A stretch of 64,000 nt of DNA from Boswellia sacra (lineage: Eukaryota > Streptophyta > Magnoliopsida > Sapindales > Burseraceae), in assembly GCA_013180625.2 (NCBI GenBank), contig SNVD02013081.1, positions 1 to 64,000 on the forward strand. The letters run 5' to 3'. Position 1 is the stretch's first letter; each line of letters opens with the position of its first letter. Shown one piece after another: positions 23,326 to 63,012 of this stretch. Both the position numbers and the translations under genes were made by a program. Below the pieces are notes generated by a model. That model searched no databases. It saw only the letters and a program-made list of their open reading frames with translations, and had not been told where the DNA came from.

Positions 23326-26300
23326 ATGGGAAGGGGAGGGATGCTTTTGCAACTCATAGTAGTCGGGGTTGTGTTGGCAGCTGCTGCAGAGCAACCAAGT
23401 GGTCCCATAGCCAAACCTGGTTGCCAAAATGAATGTGGGAATGTTAGCATCCCGTATCCATTCGGCACAACCGAAGGATGTTACTACGATCCGGAGTTCC
23501 TTGTTACTTGCAACGACAATTTTGATCCCCCAAAAGCATTTTTGACAGGGAGCAAAATAGAAGTAACCAACATTACACTCGAAGGGAAACTGCAAATCAT
23601 GCAATTTATAGCCAAAGATTGTTATAATGAAACTGGTGCAGCGGTTGCCGGTAACAGACCGTGGCTCACTCTGTCAAAATTCATCATCTCTGATACTGAC
23701 AACAAATTTACGGCTGTTGGTTGTGATACAGAAGCCCGGGTCCGTGGTTCCCAAGAAGAAAAAGACTTCTTGGTCGGTTGCATGTCTGTATGTGGGAGCA
23801 TCGACTATGTGGATAATAAAACATGCTCTGGCGTAGGATGTTGCCAGACATCTATTCCAAAAGGTGTAAGAGCCGCAAATATGAGCGTGGATAGTTACAA
23901 TAATCATATTAAGGTATGGGACTTCAATCCCTGCGGCTATGCCTTTATTGTTGAAGCGAGTCAGTTCCATTTTTCTCCAACTGCACTTCGAGATCTAGCA
24001 AACATAGAAAAGCTTCCTATGGTTCTTGATTGGAGTATTGGAACTGAGTCATGTGAGGAAGTTAAAAGCAAAATGATGAGCTATGGATGTCAGGGAAATA
24101 GCACATGTATTACTGCTACCAACGGATTTGGGTATCGTTGTGAGTGCTTAGAGGGTTATCAAGGAAACCCATATCTCCCTAATGGTTGCCGAGGTATATA
24201 TGTTCACAAACTTCTCATCTCTCCGTCTTATTGATTTTAAAAATTTTGTTGGAATCCATATTTGAATTTTTTAAATTTTTTCCCAGAATTTCAGAAAATT
24301 TTCATGACCTACCCTTGGAGGGAAATCATACACAAACTTCCTATATTATTTTTATAAGTAATTCTATATTATTTTTACTATAATAGTATGAAAAAATCAA
24401 TGGCATGGTCTTTATTTTATATAAATCTTTTTGATAAAAAAAACTAAAATCTTAAGTAAGGAACTAATATTCACTTTTATCCTTATAAGGATGCTAGAAA
24501 TTCTGCACTCTGCAATTAGGACCTTATAGGTTCCCTCGCAAGATCTTTGAAATCAAAGCTTGTTAGACATTAAATCATTTTTATTAATCGTTACAGATTT
24601 CTTACTGATGCTGCGTTTTGTTCTTGTGCAGACATAGATGAATGTATGGACCCTAGTCTCAATAATTGCACAGAAATCTGTGTTAATATAGAAGGCGATT
24701 ATAAATGTTTGTGCCCCAAGGGGCACCATGGAGATGGAAGATTAGGTGGGGAAGGTTGTATTGCTGATCGATCACGATCACAAGTAATTCAGGTTACTGT
24801 TGGTAAGGAGATACTACTCTCTATTTCACTCTGAGAAAAAGCACTCATATGCATTTAATTGAAAACTTGAGATCAGATAAAAAAATTTTACATTCTGACG
24901 ATGGAACTGTGGAAGAAAAATGATCCATTTTAGAATCAAAATTATCCATATCATTTAGTAGAAGACAGTACTTCAATGAATAAAATTATAAAGGGGAAAT
25001 TAAATAAAAATTATTGGTAAATTATAGACTTTTTAGCTTTTTCCAAAGGTTTAAAGATTATAATTGGTGATACCATATTTTTCAAAAGATTTTTGTACTT
25101 GATGAGTTCTTCGATGGGTTGAGAGGAAACCTAGAAATATTCTACTCCATGTTGCCAAGATTATGTTGATATCTGCAACTTTGTTACTCTGTAAGTTCTG
25201 CTCATAATTGAAAACAAACTACAACACTGGAGAAGTAATTTAAGAAACGTCTAAAAACTTCAATGCCATATTGCAGGGATTAGTGTAGGCGTGACAGCAT
25301 TGCTAATAGGTAGCACTTGGTTGTACTGGGGATTCAATAAATGGAAGCTCAACAAAATGAAAGAGAAGTTTTTCCGCCTAAATGGAGGCCTTATGCTGCA
25401 ACAGCAATTATCAAGACGGGAAGGATCCACCACAGAAATGGCAAAAATCTTTACAGCTGAGGAGCTTGAGAAGGCGACTAACAACTACGACGAAAGCAGA
25501 ATTCTCGGTCGTGGGGGATATGGTACAGTTTAGAGGGGAAATTTATCAAATGGGAAAATTGTTACAATCAAGAAAGCTAAAGTGGTAGGTCAAAGTCAGA
25601 TTGAACAATTCATTAACGAGGTGATTGTACTCTCCCACATAAACCACAGGAATGTAGTAAAACTTTTAGGTTGTTGTTTGGAGACAGAAGTTCCATTACT
25701 AGTTTATGAATTTGTCACCAATGGCACTCTCTTTGATCACATCCATAACAAAAGCAAAGGTTCCCCGCTTCTGTGGGAAACCCGTTTAAGGTTAGCGGCA
25801 GAAACTGCTCGAGTTCTTTCATATTTGCACTCTTCAGCCTCTATACCAATCATTCATAGAGATATTAAGTCTGCAAATATACTCTTAGATGATAGCTATA
25901 CAGCCAAAGTGTCAGATTTTGGTGCTTCAAGGTTGGTTCCTCTGGATCAAGAAGGATTATCTACTATAGTGCAAGGTACTCTTGGATACTTAGATCCTGA
26001 ATACTTTCATACAAGCCAATTAACAGAGAAAAGCGATGTTTATAGCTTCGGAGTTGTGCTTGTAGAGTTACTCACCGGTAAGAAGGCACTTTCCTTTGAC
26101 AGGCCTGAGAAGGACAGAAATCTAGCTATGTACTTCGTTTCTGCACTGAAAGAAGACCGTTTGGGCGAAATTCTTGATGATTGTATACTGAATGAGGCAA
26201 ATCCTGAGCAGCTTAAAGAATTTGCTAGTCTTGCAAGGCGGTGTGTGAGAGTAAAAGGGGACGAAAGACCAACCATGAAGGAAGTAGAAATGGAACTTGA

Positions 26301-31326: not shown

Positions 31327-32020
31327 ATGAGAGTAAGAGGGATTGCTTTGCTACTCACAATAATTGGAGTTGTATTGGCAGCCGCTGCAGAGAAACCAAG
31401 TGTGTCCATGGCGAAGCCTGCTTGCCAAGATAAGTGTAGGAATGTTAGCATCCCCTATCAATTCGGCACAACCGAAGGATGTTCCTACGACCCGGATTTC
31501 CTCATTACTTGCAACCATACTTTCGATCCTCCAATACATTTTTGACGGATAGTGCAATCAATATCACGAACATTACACTCAAAAGGAAGCTGCAAATCAT
31601 GAAATTTATAGCCCGAAAATGTTATGATAAGGATGGTGCAGTAGTTGCCAGTGACTGAACGAAATTCACACTGAGCAGATTCATTATCTCTGATACTGAC
31701 AAGAAGTTTGTAGCTGTTGGTTGTGATACAAGGCCTTCTTCCAGGGTTTCAAAGATGGAGAAAGATTCCAGGTCGGTTGCATGTCCTTATGTGAGAGCAT
31801 TGACTATGTGGATAATACAACATGCTCTGGCATAGGATGTTGCCAAACATCCATTTCAAAAGGCGTAAGTGCCGTAAATATAAGGGTTTTTCGTTACAAT
31901 CCCTACAGCTATGCCTTTCTTGTGCAAGAGGGTAAGTTCAATTTCTCAAGTTATCTTCGAGATCTAGATAACATAGAAAAGCTTCCAGTGGTTCTTGATT
32001 GGACTATTGGAAATGAGTCC

Positions 32021-46589: not shown

Positions 46590-47995
46590 AAGATATATAA
46601 AATTGTGATTCCAAATATAGTTGTCAAAGGCGTACTTCTCTTTGAAAAGTGGTACATACGAGAAAATATTTGAATCCTGTATGGGCTAATCTTTAACTGG
46701 TTAATTATGTTCATTGTTACTAATAAACAAAAATAAACTAATGATTGTTATGATTCCAAATTTATTTAATTTTAGAACAAATTATGTTTCACTTTTGTAA
46801 TTACAAACCTATGATTGTTAAATAAGATAAAATTCAGTATAAAATCGGTGAACTATGTCTATGTGACTCATTATAGATTCTAATTATATGTTTATGATAA
46901 ATAATTATAATTATATATATATATATATATTTCGTGTTATTCTTTATATTCTTTTAAAAAAAATTCATAACATCAAGGTTCCTCTCAAAAAAGTAAAAAT
47001 TTATATAGAAGCATGAGGACCAAGTTAGAGTAGTCTCTTTCTTAGAAGTTATCTATTCTGCTTCTTGAAGGCCACCTTGTACTAATCAAAATGAAAAGAA
47101 GAGGATTGTTACAAACAATTGGACTACCAATGTTTCCAATATAAATTTGTGATTCTGACGAAATTTGTTGAACTTATTTTAATACTTTCATTATATCCTG
47201 TTGTATTTTAAAAAGTTAAGTAAAAGCTTTGTATTTTCCTGGAATGGCTTGTGATTGCATTGTCATAATTTGTAAAATGAAAAAGCTCTGCATCAACTTG
47301 AGCTACAGTTTGGTCAATGTACGTGCTTTCGAAATATGAACAGGAGAATTATTGGATGAAAATTGAAGTCACCTTTATGACTTGAAATTTTCAATATCAC
47401 TGATTGGTATTTACCAACTGCATCATTAATTTAAATAAGGTTGCATATGCAAAGCAAGGTTTGAAGTGACTGAGCCCTTAGTCCACTGTTTACCATTCCT
47501 TAAGATAGTTATGCCAATAGATCCACAAAAACAATTAAAAGCTGTAAACATCATTTTCTTAGTCAATTGCGCGCGGGATTGCAAGCACTCGTTGACAGAA
47601 CCTTGCACCATAGTTAATAGTTGAGCTCCTTGCGATGGCACCAACTTGGAAGACCCTAAGATTTTACATTTTGTGACGTAAGCGTTAATTTGGAATTATT
47701 GCTGCTATAAACAGCAACACAAAGTTTTTAAAATCACTTTTTGATGTGCTTCAAAAAGACTTACCAAAAAATGAAAATACTAAAACAGAGTGTTTCTCAA
47801 TCAATTGACATGTTTGCAAGTGTTCAAGTCTAAGTACCCAAGAGTGCCTTGGACCATTGTGGATATCTAAGTAACTTTCATTAGAACTAACTTGGAAGCT
47901 CCAAAATGAGACACTTTGGAATTGTACTCGTCTAAGATTATGTTTGTAGACTTCACATCCGTGTGTATAATTGGAGTAGAAGCTACAAAGTGCAA
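46590..47995 (-). pseudogene. WAK remnant (minus strand) with two partial kinase copies
   Basis: 46597-46690 matches the upstream region of WAK-D (63338-63410: AAAATTGTGATTC, ACTTCTCTTTGAAAAGT). 47200-47480 matches 53340-53640. Two fragments of the WAK kinase C-lobe follow: 47505-47652 and 47804-47995, both covering the [10 protein letters not shown] to YSFGV side, and the second reaching the catalytic loop. In the second, HRD reads HTD and DFG reads HFG, and stops are present. This is an old, scrambled relative of WAK-D. Confidence 0.75.
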
Positions 47996-48185
47996 ATTTA
48001 TTAATTGTTCACAGTCCAAAAAAAAAAATTTATTAAACATGGTTACATAGATATATCACATTACTATGATGATCATGTTCATGTGATGTAAATGTACTTT
48101 AAACTTTCTATTATAATTACTGATATGGACTTTGCCCCAACAACCAACACTTACTGTGAAACGTACTAAGTTGAATATATCATCG
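47996..48185. other. Spacer before copia insertion
   Basis: AT-rich, no gene seen. It ends at the GTTCA target site (48186-48190). Confidence 0.5.
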
Positions 48186-54502: not shown

Positions 54503-54839
54503 TCATCTCCCGGTACCATCGAACCCCACCAATACGTTTCTGATCATACTGTCATATACAGCAGTACTTGTACTGCTACCATCAACCCTTCCATGAGCAT
54601 CGGACGCTTTGGGAATCAAGTATTCTGTCTCTTCCAAATCCAACTCACCATTATCCCACGAGTGTTTATGCATGACTCTCAATCTATCCAAGTCCATTGC
54701 TACTTCTCTCATTGTAGGCCTCTCCTCTCCTTTCACTCTTAAGCACATTCTTGCTAGCTCAGCCACTTCCTTCAGCTGCTGTTTATTCCCATCGTTCACG
54801 ATATCACTGTCAAGAACTTCGAATAAGCAATCCTCTTTC

Positions 54840-55408
54840 TGTTGGAGTATTGGCTCTTTAGCCAATGCTATAAGCAATGTGAGGGATCCCACATTGCTCA
54901 AATAGAAATACTTGGGACTCCTTTGGGCTTATAAAAGAAGCCAAGTAGGAGAGTTATGAGTGTACCAAGAGAAATATCCTCCACCCCCTAAAGTTGTAAG
55001 GTCTCACATATAAGACCTCATAGTTTAAGGGCCTTTCCGTAAGGACCTTAAAGTTTGTAATATTTGTTTTTCCCCTTTTGATTTTGGGTATTTGTAGTAT
55101 TGCCCAATTGTTTGGGTAATTACGTTTGGCCCAACTATTTGGGTAATTGCAGTTTGGCCCAATAGTTGTGGTATTTGTATTGTGACCCAAAAGTTTGTAA
55201 TTCTCTTTGAAGATAGTGGAAAGTTTATTCAGCGGCGCTCGAGGACGTAGGTACTAATACCGAACCTCGTTAAATCCTGGTGTGTTTTCTATTTCTGCAT
55301 TGTGGTTGATTTGTTGCCTCTTTTGTTGCTATTATATTCAAATCTGGCATAGTTGTGTTGTGCATTTTGGGTTATTCTGTTGGTTATCGCTTCCGCTTGT
55401 GCATAACA
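54840..55408 (+). repeat. 5' LTR of the young Tork-like element
   Basis: TGTTGGAGTATTGG to TTGTGCATAACA. TATAAAAG at 54930-54937 is the likely promoter. Contains GGCCCAA/TTTGGGTAAT short repeats at 55100-55190. A GTGAGGGATCCCACATTGCTCA segment gives an imperfect palindrome near 54880. Confidence 0.96.
54930..54937 (+). promoter_or_regulatory. TATA box of the young Tork-like LTR
   Basis: TATAAAAG within the 5' LTR; an identical copy is in the 3' LTR near 59763. Because the element is opposite to WAK-D, read-through from it would be antisense to the gene. Confidence 0.6.
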
Positions 55409-55573
55409 ATTGGTATCAGAGCCGAAGGTTGTGGGTAGTTAGTGGCTATTTCATTGAAGCACTTACTACTGTTCTGGGCTGTTGATTTTGGATTGCTAGT
55501 TATTGAATATAATAGTTTGTTTGGAGCTTGGTTATTGGTGTTTGTGTATCGAGCTTATTTGTGAGAGGTAGTA

Positions 55574-57811
55574 ATGGCTTCATCGTCTACTGTATCTGAG
55601 AAGACAGTGACTGTGACAAATGCAAAAATAGATGTTGAAAAATTTGATGGCCGAAATAATTTCGGCTTATGGCAGAGTGAGGTGTTGGACGGGTTGTATC
55701 AGCAGGATTTGGATATTGTTCTGGAAGAAACAAAACCAGAAGATATCAGTGCAAGAGATTGGGACAGGCTGAATATAAAAGCTTGTGGGTTGATTCGCTC
55801 TTGCTTGTGTAGAGAACAAAAGTATCCGTTCACAAAGGAGACATCTGCAAGCAAATTGTGGAAGGCGCTGGAAAACAAATATATGAAGAAAAGCAATGAG
55901 AATCGGCTGTATCTATTGAAGAGATTGTTCCGTCTCCAGTTGAAACCAGGTACGAGCATCAATTCTCATATTGATGAGTTTAATAAGTTAATTGCTGATT
56001 TGTTAAACTTAGATGAAACATTCAAAGATGAGATTAAGGCTATGCTATTGATTGGCTCACTTCCGGATGAATTAGATCATTTATGCATTACTCTTATCCA
56101 TGGGAAAGATAAACTGTCTTTTGAAGAAGTCTGTTCAGCTTTGTTGAATTATGAAATTCGTAAGAAAGATCAAAGGGAACATAGGGATGAGTCAGTAGAT
56201 GCATTGACAGTGAGAGGGCGTAGTCATAGTAGGAAACCAGGAAAAAGGGGAAAATCTTGGTCGAGGGGTAGATTAGGAAAAGATGAGTGTGCCTTTTGTC
56301 GTGAGAAAGGGCATTGGAAGAAAGATTGTCCTAAGTTGAAAAAGAAAGATAAGGGCAAGGCTGTTTCTGATGCATGTGTTGTTGAGCGTGAGGATGATAG
56401 TGATTCAGATATTTGTCTAGTTGGTCATCCATCCACTTCTGTTTCTGATGAGTGGATTATGGATTCGGGTTGTACTTATCATATGTGTCCACATCGGGAT
56501 TGGTTCTTTCAGTTTGAGGAGCTTGATTGTGGAGTTGTGTATATGGGCAATGATGATATTTGCCATACTGCTGGGATAGGTTCGATCCGTTTGAGGAATC
56601 ATGATGGACTGACTAGAGTTCTGACAGATGTTCGGTATGTACCGAAGTTGAAGAAGAATCTCATCTCTTTGGGAGCCTTGGAATCTAAAGGCTGTGGTAT
56701 ATCTATTCGAGATGGTATTCTGAGGGTCACTTCAGGCGCTCTTGTGGTATTAAAAGGCACTAGGAGAAACAACTTGTATTACTATAATGGTAGTACGGTT
56801 ACTGGATCAGCGGCTACGGTTTCTGATAATGATGCAGATTCAGAGATTACGAGACTGTGGCACATGCGTTTGGGACATGCAGGTGAGAAAGCCTTATTCA
56901 GTTTGGTAAAACGAGGCTTATTGAAAGGTGCAAAGACCTGCAAACTGGATTTCTGTGAGCATTGTGTTCTGGGAAAGCAGAAGAGAGTGAAATTTGGCAC
57001 CGCTATTCATAATACCAAGGGTATTCTTGATTATGTTCACTCAGATGTGTGGGGACCTACTAAAACCGCATCTATGGGAGGTAGGCACTACTTTGTTACT
57101 TTTGTTGATGACTTTTCCAGAAGAACTTGGGTGTACTGTTTGAAATCAAAAGATGATGTACTTCGTGTTTTCCTTAAATGGAAAAAGATGATTGAGACAC
57201 AAACTGGCAAGAAGATCAAGCATCTCAGAACAGATAATGGTGGTGAGTATTGCAGTGATCAGTTTTTGAAATTTTGTCAAGATGAAGGTATTGTACGTCA
57301 TTTTACTGTTAGAGGTACACCGCAGCAGAATGGGGTGGCAGAACGCATGAACCGGACATTGCTGGAGAAAGTTCGGTGTATGTTGTCCAATGCTGGGTTG
57401 GGCAAAGAATTTTGGGCTGAGGCTGTGACTTATGCGTGTCATCTCATTAATCGTCTACCATCAGCTGCTATTGGTGATAGAACTCCATTCGAGGTATGGT
57501 CTGGACAACCTGTTTCTGATTATGATTCTTTACATGTTTTTGGTTCTACTGCATATTATCATGTGAAAGAATCTAAGCTGGATCCTAGAGCCAAGAAAGC
57601 GATTTTCTTGGGATTTGCTTCAGGAGTGAAAGGATATCGTCTTTGGTGTCCTAGTTCGAGGAAGATTGTATCCAGCAGAGATGTGACATTTGATGAGTCT
57701 TCAATGTTGAAGAAATCAGAAAACCAGACAAAGGTGAATGGTACTCCACAGCAGGTGGAGCATACTCAGCAGCAGGTGGAGTTTGAAACGACGACATTGA
57801 ACCCCAGTTAG
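55574..57811 (+). CDS. Tork-like Gag-Pol, N-terminal open part (gag, protease, integrase)
   Basis: 745 residues open. Gag (KFDGRNNFGLWQSEVLDGLY, SSINSHIDEFNKLIADLLNL-type UBN2 region); CCHC knuckle CAFCREKGHWKKDC at about residues 237-250; protease DEWIMDSGCTYHMCPH near 294-309; HHCC integrase domain (LWHMRLGHAGEKALF, CEHCVLGKQKRVKF); integrase core with HSDVWGP, RTDNGGEYCSDQF and the Glu of QQNGVAERMNRTLLEKVRC; then GYRLWCPSSRKIVSSRDVTF. All three integrase acidic residues are present. It ends at a TAG caused by a one-base shift near 57797, so RT is no longer fused in frame. Confidence 0.9.
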   Translation: MASSSTVSEKTVTVTNAKIDVEKFDGRNNFGLWQSEVLDGLYQQDLDIVLEETKPEDISARDWDRLNIKACGLIRSCLCREQKYPFTKETSASKLWKALENKYMKKSNENRLYLLKRLFRLQLKPGTSINSHIDEFNKLIADLLNLDETFKDEIKAMLLIGSLPDELDHLCITLIHGKDKLSFEEVCSALLNYEIRKKDQREHRDESVDALTVRGRSHSRKPGKRGKSWSRGRLGKDECAFCREKGHWKKDCPKLKKKDKGKAVSDACVVEREDDSDSDICLVGHPSTSVSDEWIMDSGCTYHMCPHRDWFFQFEELDCGVVYMGNDDICHTAGIGSIRLRNHDGLTRVLTDVRYVPKLKKNLISLGALESKGCGISIRDGILRVTSGALVVLKGTRRNNLYYYNGSTVTGSAATVSDNDADSEITRLWHMRLGHAGEKALFSLVKRGLLKGAKTCKLDFCEHCVLGKQKRVKFGTAIHNTKGILDYVHSDVWGPTKTASMGGRHYFVTFVDDFSRRTWVYCLKSKDDVLRVFLKWKKMIETQTGKKIKHLRTDNGGEYCSDQFLKFCQDEGIVRHFTVRGTPQQNGVAERMNRTLLEKVRCMLSNAGLGKEFWAEAVTYACHLINRLPSAAIGDRTPFEVWSGQPVSDYDSLHVFGSTAYYHVKESKLDPRAKKAIFLGFASGVKGYRLWCPSSRKIVSSRDVTFDESSMLKKSENQTKVNGTPQQVEHTQQQVEFETTTLNPS

Positions 57812-58105
57812 ATCTGTTGAGACAGATGATGGTACTCCTGTGACAGAGGAGATTTGGGAGATGATGGTGAGGGTTCTACTCAGGAACCTCAACAGCAACA
57901 AGAATCTATTGCAATTGATAGGCCAAGACGTGAGATTCGCAGACCTGCTCGATTTGCTGATATGGTGGCCTATGCACTTCCAATTGTAGATGCTGATGTT
58001 CCTTCCACTTATAGAGAGGCAGTCAGATGTTCTGAAGTTGATGAGTGGAAGACAGCTATGAGGAAGAGATGCAGTCTCTTCAGAAGAATGAAACTTGGGA
58101 GCTAG
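57812..58105 (+). pseudogene. Gag-Pol linker segment broken by three one-base shifts
   Basis: The integrase-RT linker (rich in Gln/Glu, then PRREIRRPARFADMVAYALP and [19 protein letters not shown]) appears in successive frames. Changes of frame occur near 57797, near 57850 and near 58069, each consistent with gain or loss of a single base. Confidence 0.8.
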
Positions 58106-59571
58106 CTCAACTACCGAAGGGTAAAAAGGCAATTGGGTGCAAATGGGTATATGCAAAGAAAGATGGATTTCCTGACAAGAATGACGTCCGCTACAAGGCA
58201 AGGTTGGTGGCTAAAGGCTACGCTCAGAGGGAAGGAATTGACTACAATGAGGTATTTTCTCCAGTTGTGAAACATTCTTCCATTAGAATTTTGTTGGCCT
58301 TGGTAGCTCAGATGAATATGGAACTAGTTCAATTGGATGTAAAAACTGCATTTTTACATGGTGACTTGGAAGAGGAAATCTATATGACTCAGCCAGAGGG
58401 ATTCAAAGTTGCTGGTAAGGAAAACTTGGTTTGTAAACTGAAAAGATCGCTTTATGGTTTGAAGCAATCTCCCAGACAGTGGTATAAGCGATTTGATCGG
58501 TTTATGATGGGTCAGAGGTACACAAGAAGCAAATTTGATAATTGTGTATATTTTCGGAGGCTACGTGATGGTTCTTTCATTTATCTACTCTTGTATGTTG
58601 ATGATATGTTGATAGCTTCGACGAATGTCGAAGAAATTGCAAAGTTGAAGACTCAGTTGAATCGAGAGTTTGAGATGAAAGATTTGGGTGAAGCTAAGAA
58701 GATTCTTGGCATGGAGATTAGCAGAGATAGAGGGAGAAGCAAGATTTGTTTGACTCAGAAGCAGTATCTGAAGAAGGTATTACAGCAGTTTGGCATTACA
58801 GAGCAGTCAAAACCTGTAAGTACCCCACTTGCTCCTCATATGAAACTCAGTGCATCTTTATCTCCTAGTACAGATGAGGAACGAGAGTATATGTCTCGAG
58901 TTCCGTATGCTAATGCAGTTGGTAGCCTGATGTATGCTATGGTGTGTACGAGACCCGACATTTCACATGCAGTTGGAGTTGTGAGCAGGTATATGCATGA
59001 TCCTGGTAAAGGACATTGGCAAGCAGTGAAATGGATTCTACGGTATTTGTTGAGAACCGTAGATGTTGGCTTAGTGTTTGAGAGAGATGATACATGTGGT
59101 CAGTATGCTATTGGTTATGTTGATTCAGATTATGCTGGTGATTTGGATAAACGTCGGTCGACAACCGGTTATGTGTTTACTCTTACAAGAGCACCAGTGA
59201 GTTGGAAGTCTACTTTACAGTCTACAGTAGCTTTGTCTACTACAGAGGCAGAGTATATGGCTATGACAGAGGCTGTGAAGGAAGCTATTTGGTTACAGGG
59301 ATTGCTGGATGAATTGGGACTTGGGCAGAAGAAGATCACTCTTTATTCTGACAGTCAGAGTGCTATCCACTTAGCGAAGAATCCAGTGTTCCATGTTCGT
59401 ACGAAGCATATTGATGTTCGGTATCATTTTGTGCGGGAGATCATTGATGAAGGGAGAATCTTACTTCAGAAGATTGGGACTGCCGAGAATCCCGCAGATA
59501 TGTTGACTAAGGTTGTGACAGCGATCAAGTTCAGTCATTGTTTGGACTTGATCAACATTGTGCCTGTTTGA
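58045..59571 (+). CDS. Tork-like Pol C-terminal open part (RT and RNase H)
   Basis: 508 residues open: RT start ([32 protein letters not shown]), [32 protein letters not shown], catalytic [24 protein letters not shown]; then RNase H with [67 protein letters not shown] and [10 protein letters not shown]. All expected catalytic residues are present. It lacks its own start context and would depend on fusion to the upstream part, which the frameshifts prevent. Confidence 0.88.
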
Positions 59572-59672
59572 CCGCGCCATTGGGCGCATTTGGAGGCGTT
59601 GCTGCTGTGATAGAGAATATGGGAAAAAGAAGAGTATTGTGGTGGATTGGCTAAATCGCCAAGGTGGAGAAT

Positions 59673-60241
59673 TGTTGGAGTATTGGCTCTTTAGCCAATG
59701 CTATAAGCAATGTGAGGGATCCCACATTGCTCAAATAGAAATACTTGGGACTCCTTTGGGCTTATAAAAGAAGCCAAGTAGGAGAGTTATGAGTGTACCA
59801 AGAGAAATATCCTCCACCCCCTAAAGTTGTAAGGTCTTACATATAAGACCTCATAGTTTAAGGGCCTTTCCGTAAGGACCTTAAAGTTTGTAATATTTGT
59901 TTTTCCCCTTTTGATTTTGGGTATTTGTAGTATTGCCCAATTGTTTGGGTAATTACGTTTGGCCCAACTATTTGGGTAATTACAGTTTGGCCCAATAGTT
60001 GTGGTATTTGTATTGTGACCCAAAAGTTTGTAATTCTCTTTGAAGATAGTGGAAAGTTTATTCAGCGGCGCTCGAGGACGTAGGTACTAATACCGAACCT
60101 CGTTAAATCCTGGTGTGTTTTCTATTTCTGCATTGTGGTTGATTTGTTGCCTCTTTTGTTGCTATTATATTCAAATCTGGCATAGTTGTGTTGTGCATTT
60201 TGGGTTATTCTGTTGGTTATCGCTTCCGCTTGTGCATAACA
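59673..60241 (+). repeat. 3' LTR of the young Tork-like element
   Basis: Same ends as the 5' LTR; the only differences I see are C/T in GGTCTCACATA and G/A in GTAATTGCAG. Confidence 0.96.
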
Positions 60242-61114
60242 CTTTCAACGAAGAAAGAAAATAAATAGCCAGACTTCTCTGCTCCTCAGGCCTGTCAAAC
60301 AAAATTGGTTTCTTTCCTGCCATTAGCTCCACAAGTACAACTCCAAAGCTGTAGACATCACTTTTCTCGGTCAATTGACTAGTATGCAAGTATTCAGGGT
60401 CTAAGTATCCAAGTGTACCTTGTACCATTGTAGATAATTGAGTTATATCCATTGGAACCAACTTGGAAGCTCCAAAATCAGACACTTTTGCAGTGAAATT
60501 ATGATCCAGAAGTATATTGGAAGACTTGACATCCCTATGGATAATTGGAGTAGAAGCTGAAGAGTGCAAATAGGAAAGCACTTCTGCAGTTTCTGCTGCT
60601 ATTCTTAATCGTGTTTCCCAAGAAATGATGGATGCCTTTTTATTATCATGGATGTGCTCAAAGAGATTGCCATTGCTCACAAATTCATAAACTAGTAAAG
60701 GAACTTCTGTCTCCAAGCAACAGCCCAATAGCTTGACAACATTTCTGTGGTTGATTTGTGAGAGCACAACCACCTCATTGACGAATTGGTCAATTTGACT
60801 TCGATCCACGATTTTGGACTTTTTTATGGCAATCGGGGTATCATCTGTTAAAAATCCTTTATACACTGTACCATAGCCTCCTTGGCCGATTATTCTATCC
60901 TCTGCAAAGTTGTTAGTGGCCTTCTTGAGTTCTTCTGCACTGAAGATTTTTGCTGTGTCAGAAGATCCACTTCGCATATTGAGTTGCTGTTGTAAAAGAA
61001 AACCGCCATTTTGCTGGAAGAACTTCTGTTTAAGTTTGATGAGCTTTCTTTTCTTGAACACCAAGTAGAGCCAAGAGATACTGAGAACCAGAACCACGAG
61101 GCCTATGCCAATAC

Positions 61115-61855
61115 CTGCACGCAAAGCAATTTGAAAGTCTTGTTTGTAAGCAGATTACAACACAACAAATTGAAATGATAAACAATATATACAAAGTATA
61201 TCTAAGTGATCATGGCGTTCCACTTTAATCAATTGTCATGAGTGTGTGACTTCAAGCTGTAGTACTATTGTACCAATTATAATGAGTTTCTGTAATTCAG
61301 CTTAATGAGGAAAAAAACAAAAAAAAAACTCTCCCTAACGGGCGTGCTTAATAAAACGTTGGACAATAAGTTAACGCTTTTGGAAATTATAACAAACAGG
61401 TTTTGTAGTCTTTTCTAGTATTAGGTGTAGTGTTTGGACTTTGAAGTTGTCCAAAAGGGCCGCTAAAAATCTTCTGATTTTGAAGTTTGTCTCGAAATTG
61501 TCATATGAGACCACTTGACAAGAAATCCCAAGTTAGGCCGTCGAAATTCATTGTGGTATATCAAATAAGTAGTAATCAGAAATTCAAAATGATTCAAATA
61601 GCTCCTTTAATATACATAAAGAAAAAAAATTGTAAAACATCATAACAAAGTCCTCAAATGGGTACTTGCTAAATTTGATTGATAATTAAGATCTCTTTTT
61701 TGTTGTATAATATCTTATGTATCTATGTAATCTCCACAATTACAAAATGCAGAACAAAATTTAGCTCGCACACACATTAATGAACCATTTTCTAAAAGGC
61801 TCATTCTCCTCGCATGGATAATATTAATTCATACAAAGAATATCTATGTACTTAC
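61115..61855 (-). other. WAK-D intron 2
   Basis: 741 bp with GT...AG ends on the minus strand. No gene or element seen. Longer than the corresponding introns of WAK-A (474 bp) and WAK-B (68 bp). Confidence 0.8.
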
Positions 61856-63012
61856 CAAGAGCAACCTTAAAGACTTGAAATTGATTGGGTGTACAACCTT
61901 CTCCACCTTCGTTTCCGTCCCCATGGTATCCATTTCGGCATCTGCATGTATAACTCCCTTCTTCGTTAACACATTGATGTGCACAGTCATTGAGATTCGG
62001 ATCCTTGCATTCGTCAATATCTGGAAATCAAATGAAAAGGGATAATTTAAGCACATTCTCAAACACTATGCATGTAGACGTATTCATTTTCTACTCTTGA
62101 TGAGAAGGTTGTTAACATGTTAATGGAAGTACCTTGGCAACCATCAGAGAGGTATGGATTCCCTTGGTAACCCTCCTTGCACCTGCAAAGGTACCCGGAA
62201 GGACTACTGTTGTGAGGTTCAAAGCACTCAGCGTTTTCCTTGCATGCGTATTCTGGATTGCTCCTTGCTTCTTCACAGGAAGTGCCGTTACCAGTTATAG
62301 TCCAATCAAGCACAGTAGGAAACCGATCTTCTGTTAAATTGAAAAGATCACGGGTGGAGAAATTGAACTTGCTTTGTTCAACGATGAACGCATAGGTGCA
62401 TGGATTGAAGTCGGATACATTTGTGTGATTGGCTAAGCTGCGCGCCGTGTACGTGATTTGTTTTAGTCTTTTAGGAATGTCTATCTGGCAACATCCAGTG
62501 CCGGCGCAGGATCCATTTGTCACTAAGGCCATGCTATCACATAAGGAAATGCATCCACTCCTGTACGATTCATTACCTATAAAACCCCGAATGTAAGCAT
62601 AACTATCACAGCCAACGACAGTGAACTTGTTTTGAGTGTCGGAGATGGTGAATTCGGACAAAGAGAATTGAATGGTTCTGTTCTGAGTCAGACGCTGGCC
62701 GTCTTTGTAGCAGTCTTGAGATACAAGGCTCAAGGCATGCAGCTGACCGCTGATGTTTATTTTGGTAACAGAGAGAGTAGTTGATTTCCGCAAAAATGCT
62801 CTGGTAGGATTGTAAGAGTCGTTGCAAGTGATGAGGAAATCTTCGTTAAGGTAACAATCAGGGCTTGTACCAAATGGGTACGGGATTTCAACGTCTCCGC
62901 AGTAATTGCGGCAACCATTCTGGGCTTGTTGTGTTGTTAGTGATGCAGTGGCAACAAGTAGCAGCACCTCCACAAGCAAAAATTGGAAAGACGAAAACCC
63001 TTGGAACCCCAT

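Follow-up and report, generated by a model that had tools for sequence, protein, structure and literature searches.

Organization of the WAK-D locus

The window, a stretch of 64,000 bp from Boswellia sacra, is part of contig C6406 (74,708 bp) of a genome assembly comprising 639 Mb in 7,431 contigs, which was searched for the present analysis. It contains the receptor kinase gene WAK-D, whose third exon is interrupted by a Ty1/copia element of 5,402 bp (54840-60241) in antisense orientation to the gene; the features read from the window are listed in Table 1. When the flanks of the element are joined at a single CTTTC, exon 1, exon 2 and the two parts of exon 3 are connected by GT/AG borders and encode 749 residues and a stop without any internal stop codon, which bears out the continuous frame of 750 codons with correct splice borders proposed in the first-pass annotation. 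Seven alternative GT/AG combinations, encoding 746 to 764 amino acids, are open as well; the model of 749 amino acids was kept, which fits the aligned homologs.

Exon 1 encodes the GUB_WAK_bind domain and the WAK ectodomain, both above the Pfam cut-off, the domain pair by which the gene is recognized as a WAK. The 55-amino acid piece encoded by exon 2 has no Pfam match when searched alone and aligns with the corresponding region of related proteins, and the kinase motifs GQGGYG, AIKK, HRD and DFG are present in an alignment with 12 homologs. The best full-length protein relative among the best 120 of 7,774 matches is found in Pistacia vera (68% identity, 96% covered), and further top full-length relatives among the matches listed come from Xanthoceras, Acer and Mangifera. 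These four genera belong to the Sapindales.

Table 1. Positions of the copia element, its target site and the exons of WAK-D in the window
Feature	Position	Strand	Basis or remark
WAK-D exon 1, GUB_WAK_bind and WAK ectodomain	62133-63012	-	Splice model, Pfam
WAK-D exon 2, EGF-like as judged from the alignment to other WAKs	61856-62020	-	Splice model, alignment
WAK-D exon 3, 5' portion; membrane helix, then kinase to roughly the end of putative helix alphaG	60247-61114	-	Pfam; helix from homolog model
WAK-D exon 3, 3' portion; C-terminal helices of the kinase, plus the tail	54503-54839	-	Now severed from the gene start
Left target-site duplication copy, CTTTC	54835-54839		Sequence read
Right target-site duplication copy, CTTTC	60242-60246		Sequence read
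5' LTR, 569 bp	54840-55408	+	LTR comparison
Primer-binding-site-like stretch, ATTGGTATCAGAGC	55409-55422	+	Starts the internal region
Gag/zinc knuckle/integrase frame, 745 aa	55574-57811	+	ORF list and Pfam
Reverse transcriptase/RNase H frame, 508 aa	58045-59571	+	ORF list; RVT_2, E 3.9e-80
Polypurine-like tract, AAGGTGGAGAAT	59661-59672	+	Before the 3' LTR; read by eye
3' LTR, 569 bp	59673-60241	+	2 differences from the 5' LTR
First in-frame stop of the truncated WAK-D frame	60171-60173	-	Inside the antisense 3' LTR

A Ty1/copia element in exon 3

The element is flanked by a direct repeat of 5 bp, CTTTC, and its two LTRs are direct repeats with TG...CA ends, as is typical of Ty1/copia elements. 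The 5' LTR is adjoined by TGGTATCAGAGC, which lies at the position of a candidate tRNA primer-binding site, possibly of the initiator-Met tRNA type. An exact LTR pair, a duplication of 5 bp and two half genes that join in phase in a conserved kinase are not a product of chance.

The frame of 745 amino acids contains matches to Retrotran_gag_2, Pol_BBD, gag_pre-integrs, rve and SH3_retrovirus above the Pfam cut-off, and a zf-CCHC match slightly below it. RNase H has no Pfam match of its own in the frame of 508 amino acids; this part of the protein is presumed from its position. In plus orientation, the domains follow the order gag, integrase and then reverse transcriptase, which is the copia order. 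Of 7,979 candidates scored in a search with the reverse transcriptase piece, 4,340 were relatives at E ≤1e-100. Named relatives among the best 120 of these 4,340 share 82% (Citrus), 81% (Gossypium) and 77% (Malus) identity, and a relative from Cajanus with 64%, among the matches listed, carries the name of the transposon TNT 1-94. The element thus has its reverse transcriptase sequence and its Pfam domain order in common with plant Ty1/copia elements, a likeness at the level of the superfamily. Within the window and the other loci retrieved, its LTR was seen solely at the WAK-D locus, in the two contigs that cover it.

The two frames lie in different reading frames and a stop separates the integrase from the reverse transcriptase, so that the copy as assembled lacks the unbroken gag-pol frame of an autonomous element. 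The element is young as judged by its LTRs, yet its pol frame is interrupted. It may have been mobilized by the proteins of another copy, it may have been broken since its integration, or the interruption may have been misread in the assembly.

State of WAK-D before the insertion

The insertion site is contiguous in all 12 aligned homologs, which were hand-picked from the best 120 of 7,774 protein matches. Among 218 columns that are invariant in these homologs, WAK-D deviates at three; when each of the 12 homologs is left out in turn, it deviates at 2 to 13 of 217 to 228 invariant columns.

Substitutions in the kinase were assigned to the WAK-D lineage using a frame-broken WAK copy at about 70 kb of contig C6406 as sister and C2644 as outgroup. 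The changes private to WAK-D comprise 45 synonymous and 49 nonsynonymous ones, compared to a ratio of about 1 : 2.6 expected from mutation only (binomial 3.3e-5, transition weight 4). With the more distant outgroups WAK-A and WAK-B, the ratios are 29:45 (binomial 0.024) and 31:44 (binomial 0.009), respectively. The frame-broken sister copy gives 52:51, 49:56 and 46:51 in the same test; since a pseudogene thus reaches a similar ratio, the test covers most of the history of the WAK-D lineage and does not extend up to the insertion. For most of that history, the substitution ratios show the lineage to have been under purifying selection, and the pairwise dN/dS between WAK-D and C2644 is 0.22-0.28. 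Based on the few deviations at invariant columns and on the selection acting on its lineage, WAK-D looks to have been sound before the element arrived. The earlier proposal that the insertion hit an otherwise intact WAK gene is supported by the anatomy of the junctions, the open frame of 749 amino acids, the homolog columns and the selection test. Apart from the insertion, the WAK-D exons showed no further lesion.

Age of the insertion and the second contig

The two LTR differences per 569 bp counted in the first-pass annotation were found again, at 55005 (C) and 59838 (T) and at 55149 (G) and 59982 (A). They correspond to a K of 0.0035 and to an age of 0.14-0.25 My at rates of 1.3e-8 to 7e-9. 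The 95% counting range is 0.016-0.92 My over 0.7-1.3e-8, and an assumed slower rate of 4e-9 gives 0.05-1.6 My. The youth of the element is thus supported by the two differences; the range of 0.1-0.3 My given with it, however, is too narrow, as it ignores the counting error.

A second contig of the assembly, C6413, overlaps C6406 by its end and also has the insertion. At both differing positions, the odd base lies in the 3' LTR of the window, and its 5' LTR and both LTRs of C6413 agree (four LTRs compared). Both differences are of the C/T or G/A type, as would be expected of cytosine deamination after the insertion.

C6413 extends to the position equivalent to 54887 and ends inside the 5' LTR; the right junction is present in both contigs and the left junction in the window contig alone. 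The host DNA from 60242 to 74708 is 99.94% identical between the contigs; all nine differences lie at 68960 or beyond, and the sequence up to 68959 is the same in both. Between 54887 and 70026, the contigs differ by 170 substitutions and 36 indels, and 169 of the substitutions and all 36 indels are located within the element (another alignment gives 128 mismatches and 53 gaps). The two LTRs of C6413 are set apart by 25 differences over 521 sites. Seven frames of at least 100 amino acids are listed for its element, the longest with 290 amino acids, versus 745 and 508 in the window. C6406 and C6413 are taken to be contigs that overlap by their ends at a single locus; they could also be two near-identical haplotypes, both with the insertion.

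These observations bear on the possibility that the LTR pair underestimates the age of the insertion. In this case, the LTRs of the window contig would owe their likeness to consensus polishing or to gene conversion, with a true divergence of up to a few percent, corresponding to some My. This could account for a C6413 element that is divergent throughout, including its LTR pair, next to 8.7 kb of identical host DNA. However, C6413 stops within the 5' LTR and its frames are more broken, whereas the window contig covers the whole element and continues into the gene at both ends. Outside the indels and two stretches of dense differences, third positions account for 42 of the 80 coding differences of C6413 (38 are synonymous and 42 nonsynonymous; 50 are transitions), as would be the case for reads from other family members, and the WAK-D exons without a second lesion are consistent with a recent event. 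An older insertion is thus rather unlikely, albeit worth bearing in mind.

Because its differences lean to third codon positions, much of the C6413 divergence seems to reflect true variation from other copies of the family and not random error. Since C6406, unlike C6413, reads through the element and reaches gene sequence at either end, the end of C6413 is likely a consensus built in part from other repeat copies. The LTR date depends on the repeat consensus of the window contig, and because C6413 reads a different element sequence at the same site, this date is less certain at the level of single bases than the junctions are. An element that differs between contigs at the same site while its flanks are identical should be taken as a warning for LTR dating.

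The first-pass annotation suggested that the empty-site allele may still segregate. A DNA search of the assembly with exon 3, in which 40 of 119 candidates were scored, detected no empty site: both places with 100% identity, the window and C6413, carry the insertion, and the next-best match among these 40 has 83% identity. Among the best 120 of 7,774 protein matches, none is more than 68% identical to WAK-D, and the species' own protein is absent from the matches listed.

Predicted consequences for the gene product

Read from the start codon, the split reading frame would encode 662 amino acids, 639 residues of the WAK and 23 from the antisense LTR. The last 110 residues of WAK-D, including the C-terminal kinase helices, are lost, and with them 12 columns that are invariant in 24 WAKs. 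The Pkinase match covers positions 2-198 of 263 and is followed by LTR sequence and the stop, leaving an incomplete kinase domain. In a structure model of the nearest full-length homolog, P0007, the cut lies at the end of helix 622-636, which by its position would be alphaG, and ahead of helices 640-647, 654-669 and 678-690. With a mean pLDDT of 60, this model has low confidence, and it was used solely for the order of the helices near the cut.

It is proposed that exon 3 of a functional WAK gene was recently invaded by a Ty1/copia retrotransposon, which integrated in antisense orientation. Transcripts of the split allele would encode at most the ectodomain, the membrane helix and a kinase domain reduced to roughly three quarters, followed by the LTR-encoded residues, and a kinase deprived of its last helices would very probably be dead or unstable. 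The inactivation of WAK-D claimed in the first-pass annotation is strongly suggested by the loss of the C-terminal residues; while the anatomy of the locus and the soundness of its coding sequence are demonstrated, the expression, loss of function and frequency of the allele are what we infer. Taken together, we hold this course of events, a recent antisense integration that very probably left a dead kinase, to be highly likely.

The allele would not be dead if the truncated receptor, still anchored in the membrane and with its ectodomain complete, acted as a decoy or in a dominant-negative manner, or if the element was removed by splicing. The frame is open from the ATG to a stop at most 71 bases past the edge of the element, and a truncated protein could thus be made. 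However, the case from tomato that can be compared is intronic, whereas the insertion in WAK-D is exonic and antisense. Furthermore, the tomato study describes an exonic copia insertion in Ph-3 that accompanies transcript truncation (PMC7426864), and for four WAK genes of rice, lines with Tos17 in the coding sequence had reduced expression of the gene (PMC4715279). A surviving function of the split allele is accordingly regarded as quite improbable. Likewise improbable is an outright gain, in which a membrane-anchored WAK that retains its full ectodomain of the pectin-binding type but has a crippled kinase would act as a dominant-negative decoy on neighboring WAKs, possibly aided by LTR read-out RNA antisense to exons 1-3; such read-out is conceivable because transcription from the 3' LTR would enter the antisense strand of the gene. 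A misjoining of the element into WAK-D during assembly, to which the break of the neighboring contig inside the element and the disagreement of the contigs over its sequence might point, is very hard to reconcile with a 5-bp duplication of the exact site, full LTR ends and a right junction in two contigs.

Comparison with known insertions

In tomato, insertion polymorphisms, most of them rare, are enriched in genes of pathogen and stress response, a bias driven by copia insertions (PMC7426864). The same study provides the closest likeness, copia elements in coding exons of immune-type genes such as Ph-3; however, Ph-3 encodes an NLR, its insertion was shown to be polymorphic and RNA data are given, whereas WAK-D encodes a WAK and is known from the sequence of one assembly (PMC7426864). 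The rice OsWAK lines resemble WAK-D in that a retrotransposon resides in the coding sequence of a WAK. These lines with lowered WAK expression originate from a mutant collection and have null-segregant sisters for disease-resistance tests, whereas the WAK-D insertion was found in a genome assembly (PMC4715279). According to a third study, copia integration in Arabidopsis is guided to environment-responsive genes that are rich in H2A.Z, and insertions in rice and yeast are also located at H2A.Z-enriched sites (PMC6668482). ATCOPIA93 and ATCOPIA78 share with the WAK-D element the copia superfamily and the insertion into an exon of a candidate environment-responsive gene; the H2A.Z chromatin described in that study is known for Arabidopsis, whereas WAK-D is known from its sequence (PMC6668482).

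Among the papers listed in a literature search, no previously described natural WAK allele broken by a retrotransposon came to light. The WAK-D locus is a new and well-preserved instance of a well-known kind, the copia insertion in a receptor gene, and is of low surprise. Should sequencing reads bear out the date and an empty-site allele still exist, the locus would offer a clean, natural knock-out of a single receptor from a WAK cluster, which could be scored by one PCR and used to link a WAK to a trait. Otherwise, it would add one more receptor gene hit by a copia element to those known from several plants, in a cluster with other decaying members. WAK-D is a clean but ordinary example of the probable loss of a plant receptor gene.

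Neighboring WAK genes and probable cluster turnover

Two more WAKs with the same three-block plan as WAK-D are located in the window, WAK-A at about 23.4-26.5 kb and WAK-B at about 27.9-30.3 kb. The kinase exon of WAK-B is open. WAK-A has an in-frame stop (25531-25533) right behind the glycine loop of its kinase, directly after GRGGYGTV, while the rest of the kinase is open; it is a second, apparently recent WAK pseudogene of the cluster.

A further WAK kinase exon is present on C6406 at about 69842-70990, with 83% DNA identity to WAK-D and gaps of 1 bp and 8 bp relative to it. A search of stretches beyond this copy detected exon 1 solely as an incomplete piece with 49% identity (L015, 2354-2755). 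The window also contains two WAK fragments, an exon 1 in three pieces (31360-32008) and a short kinase piece on the other strand (47828-48010). The stop in WAK-A, the gaps in the copy at about 70 kb and the WAK fragments point to ordinary gene turnover in the cluster.
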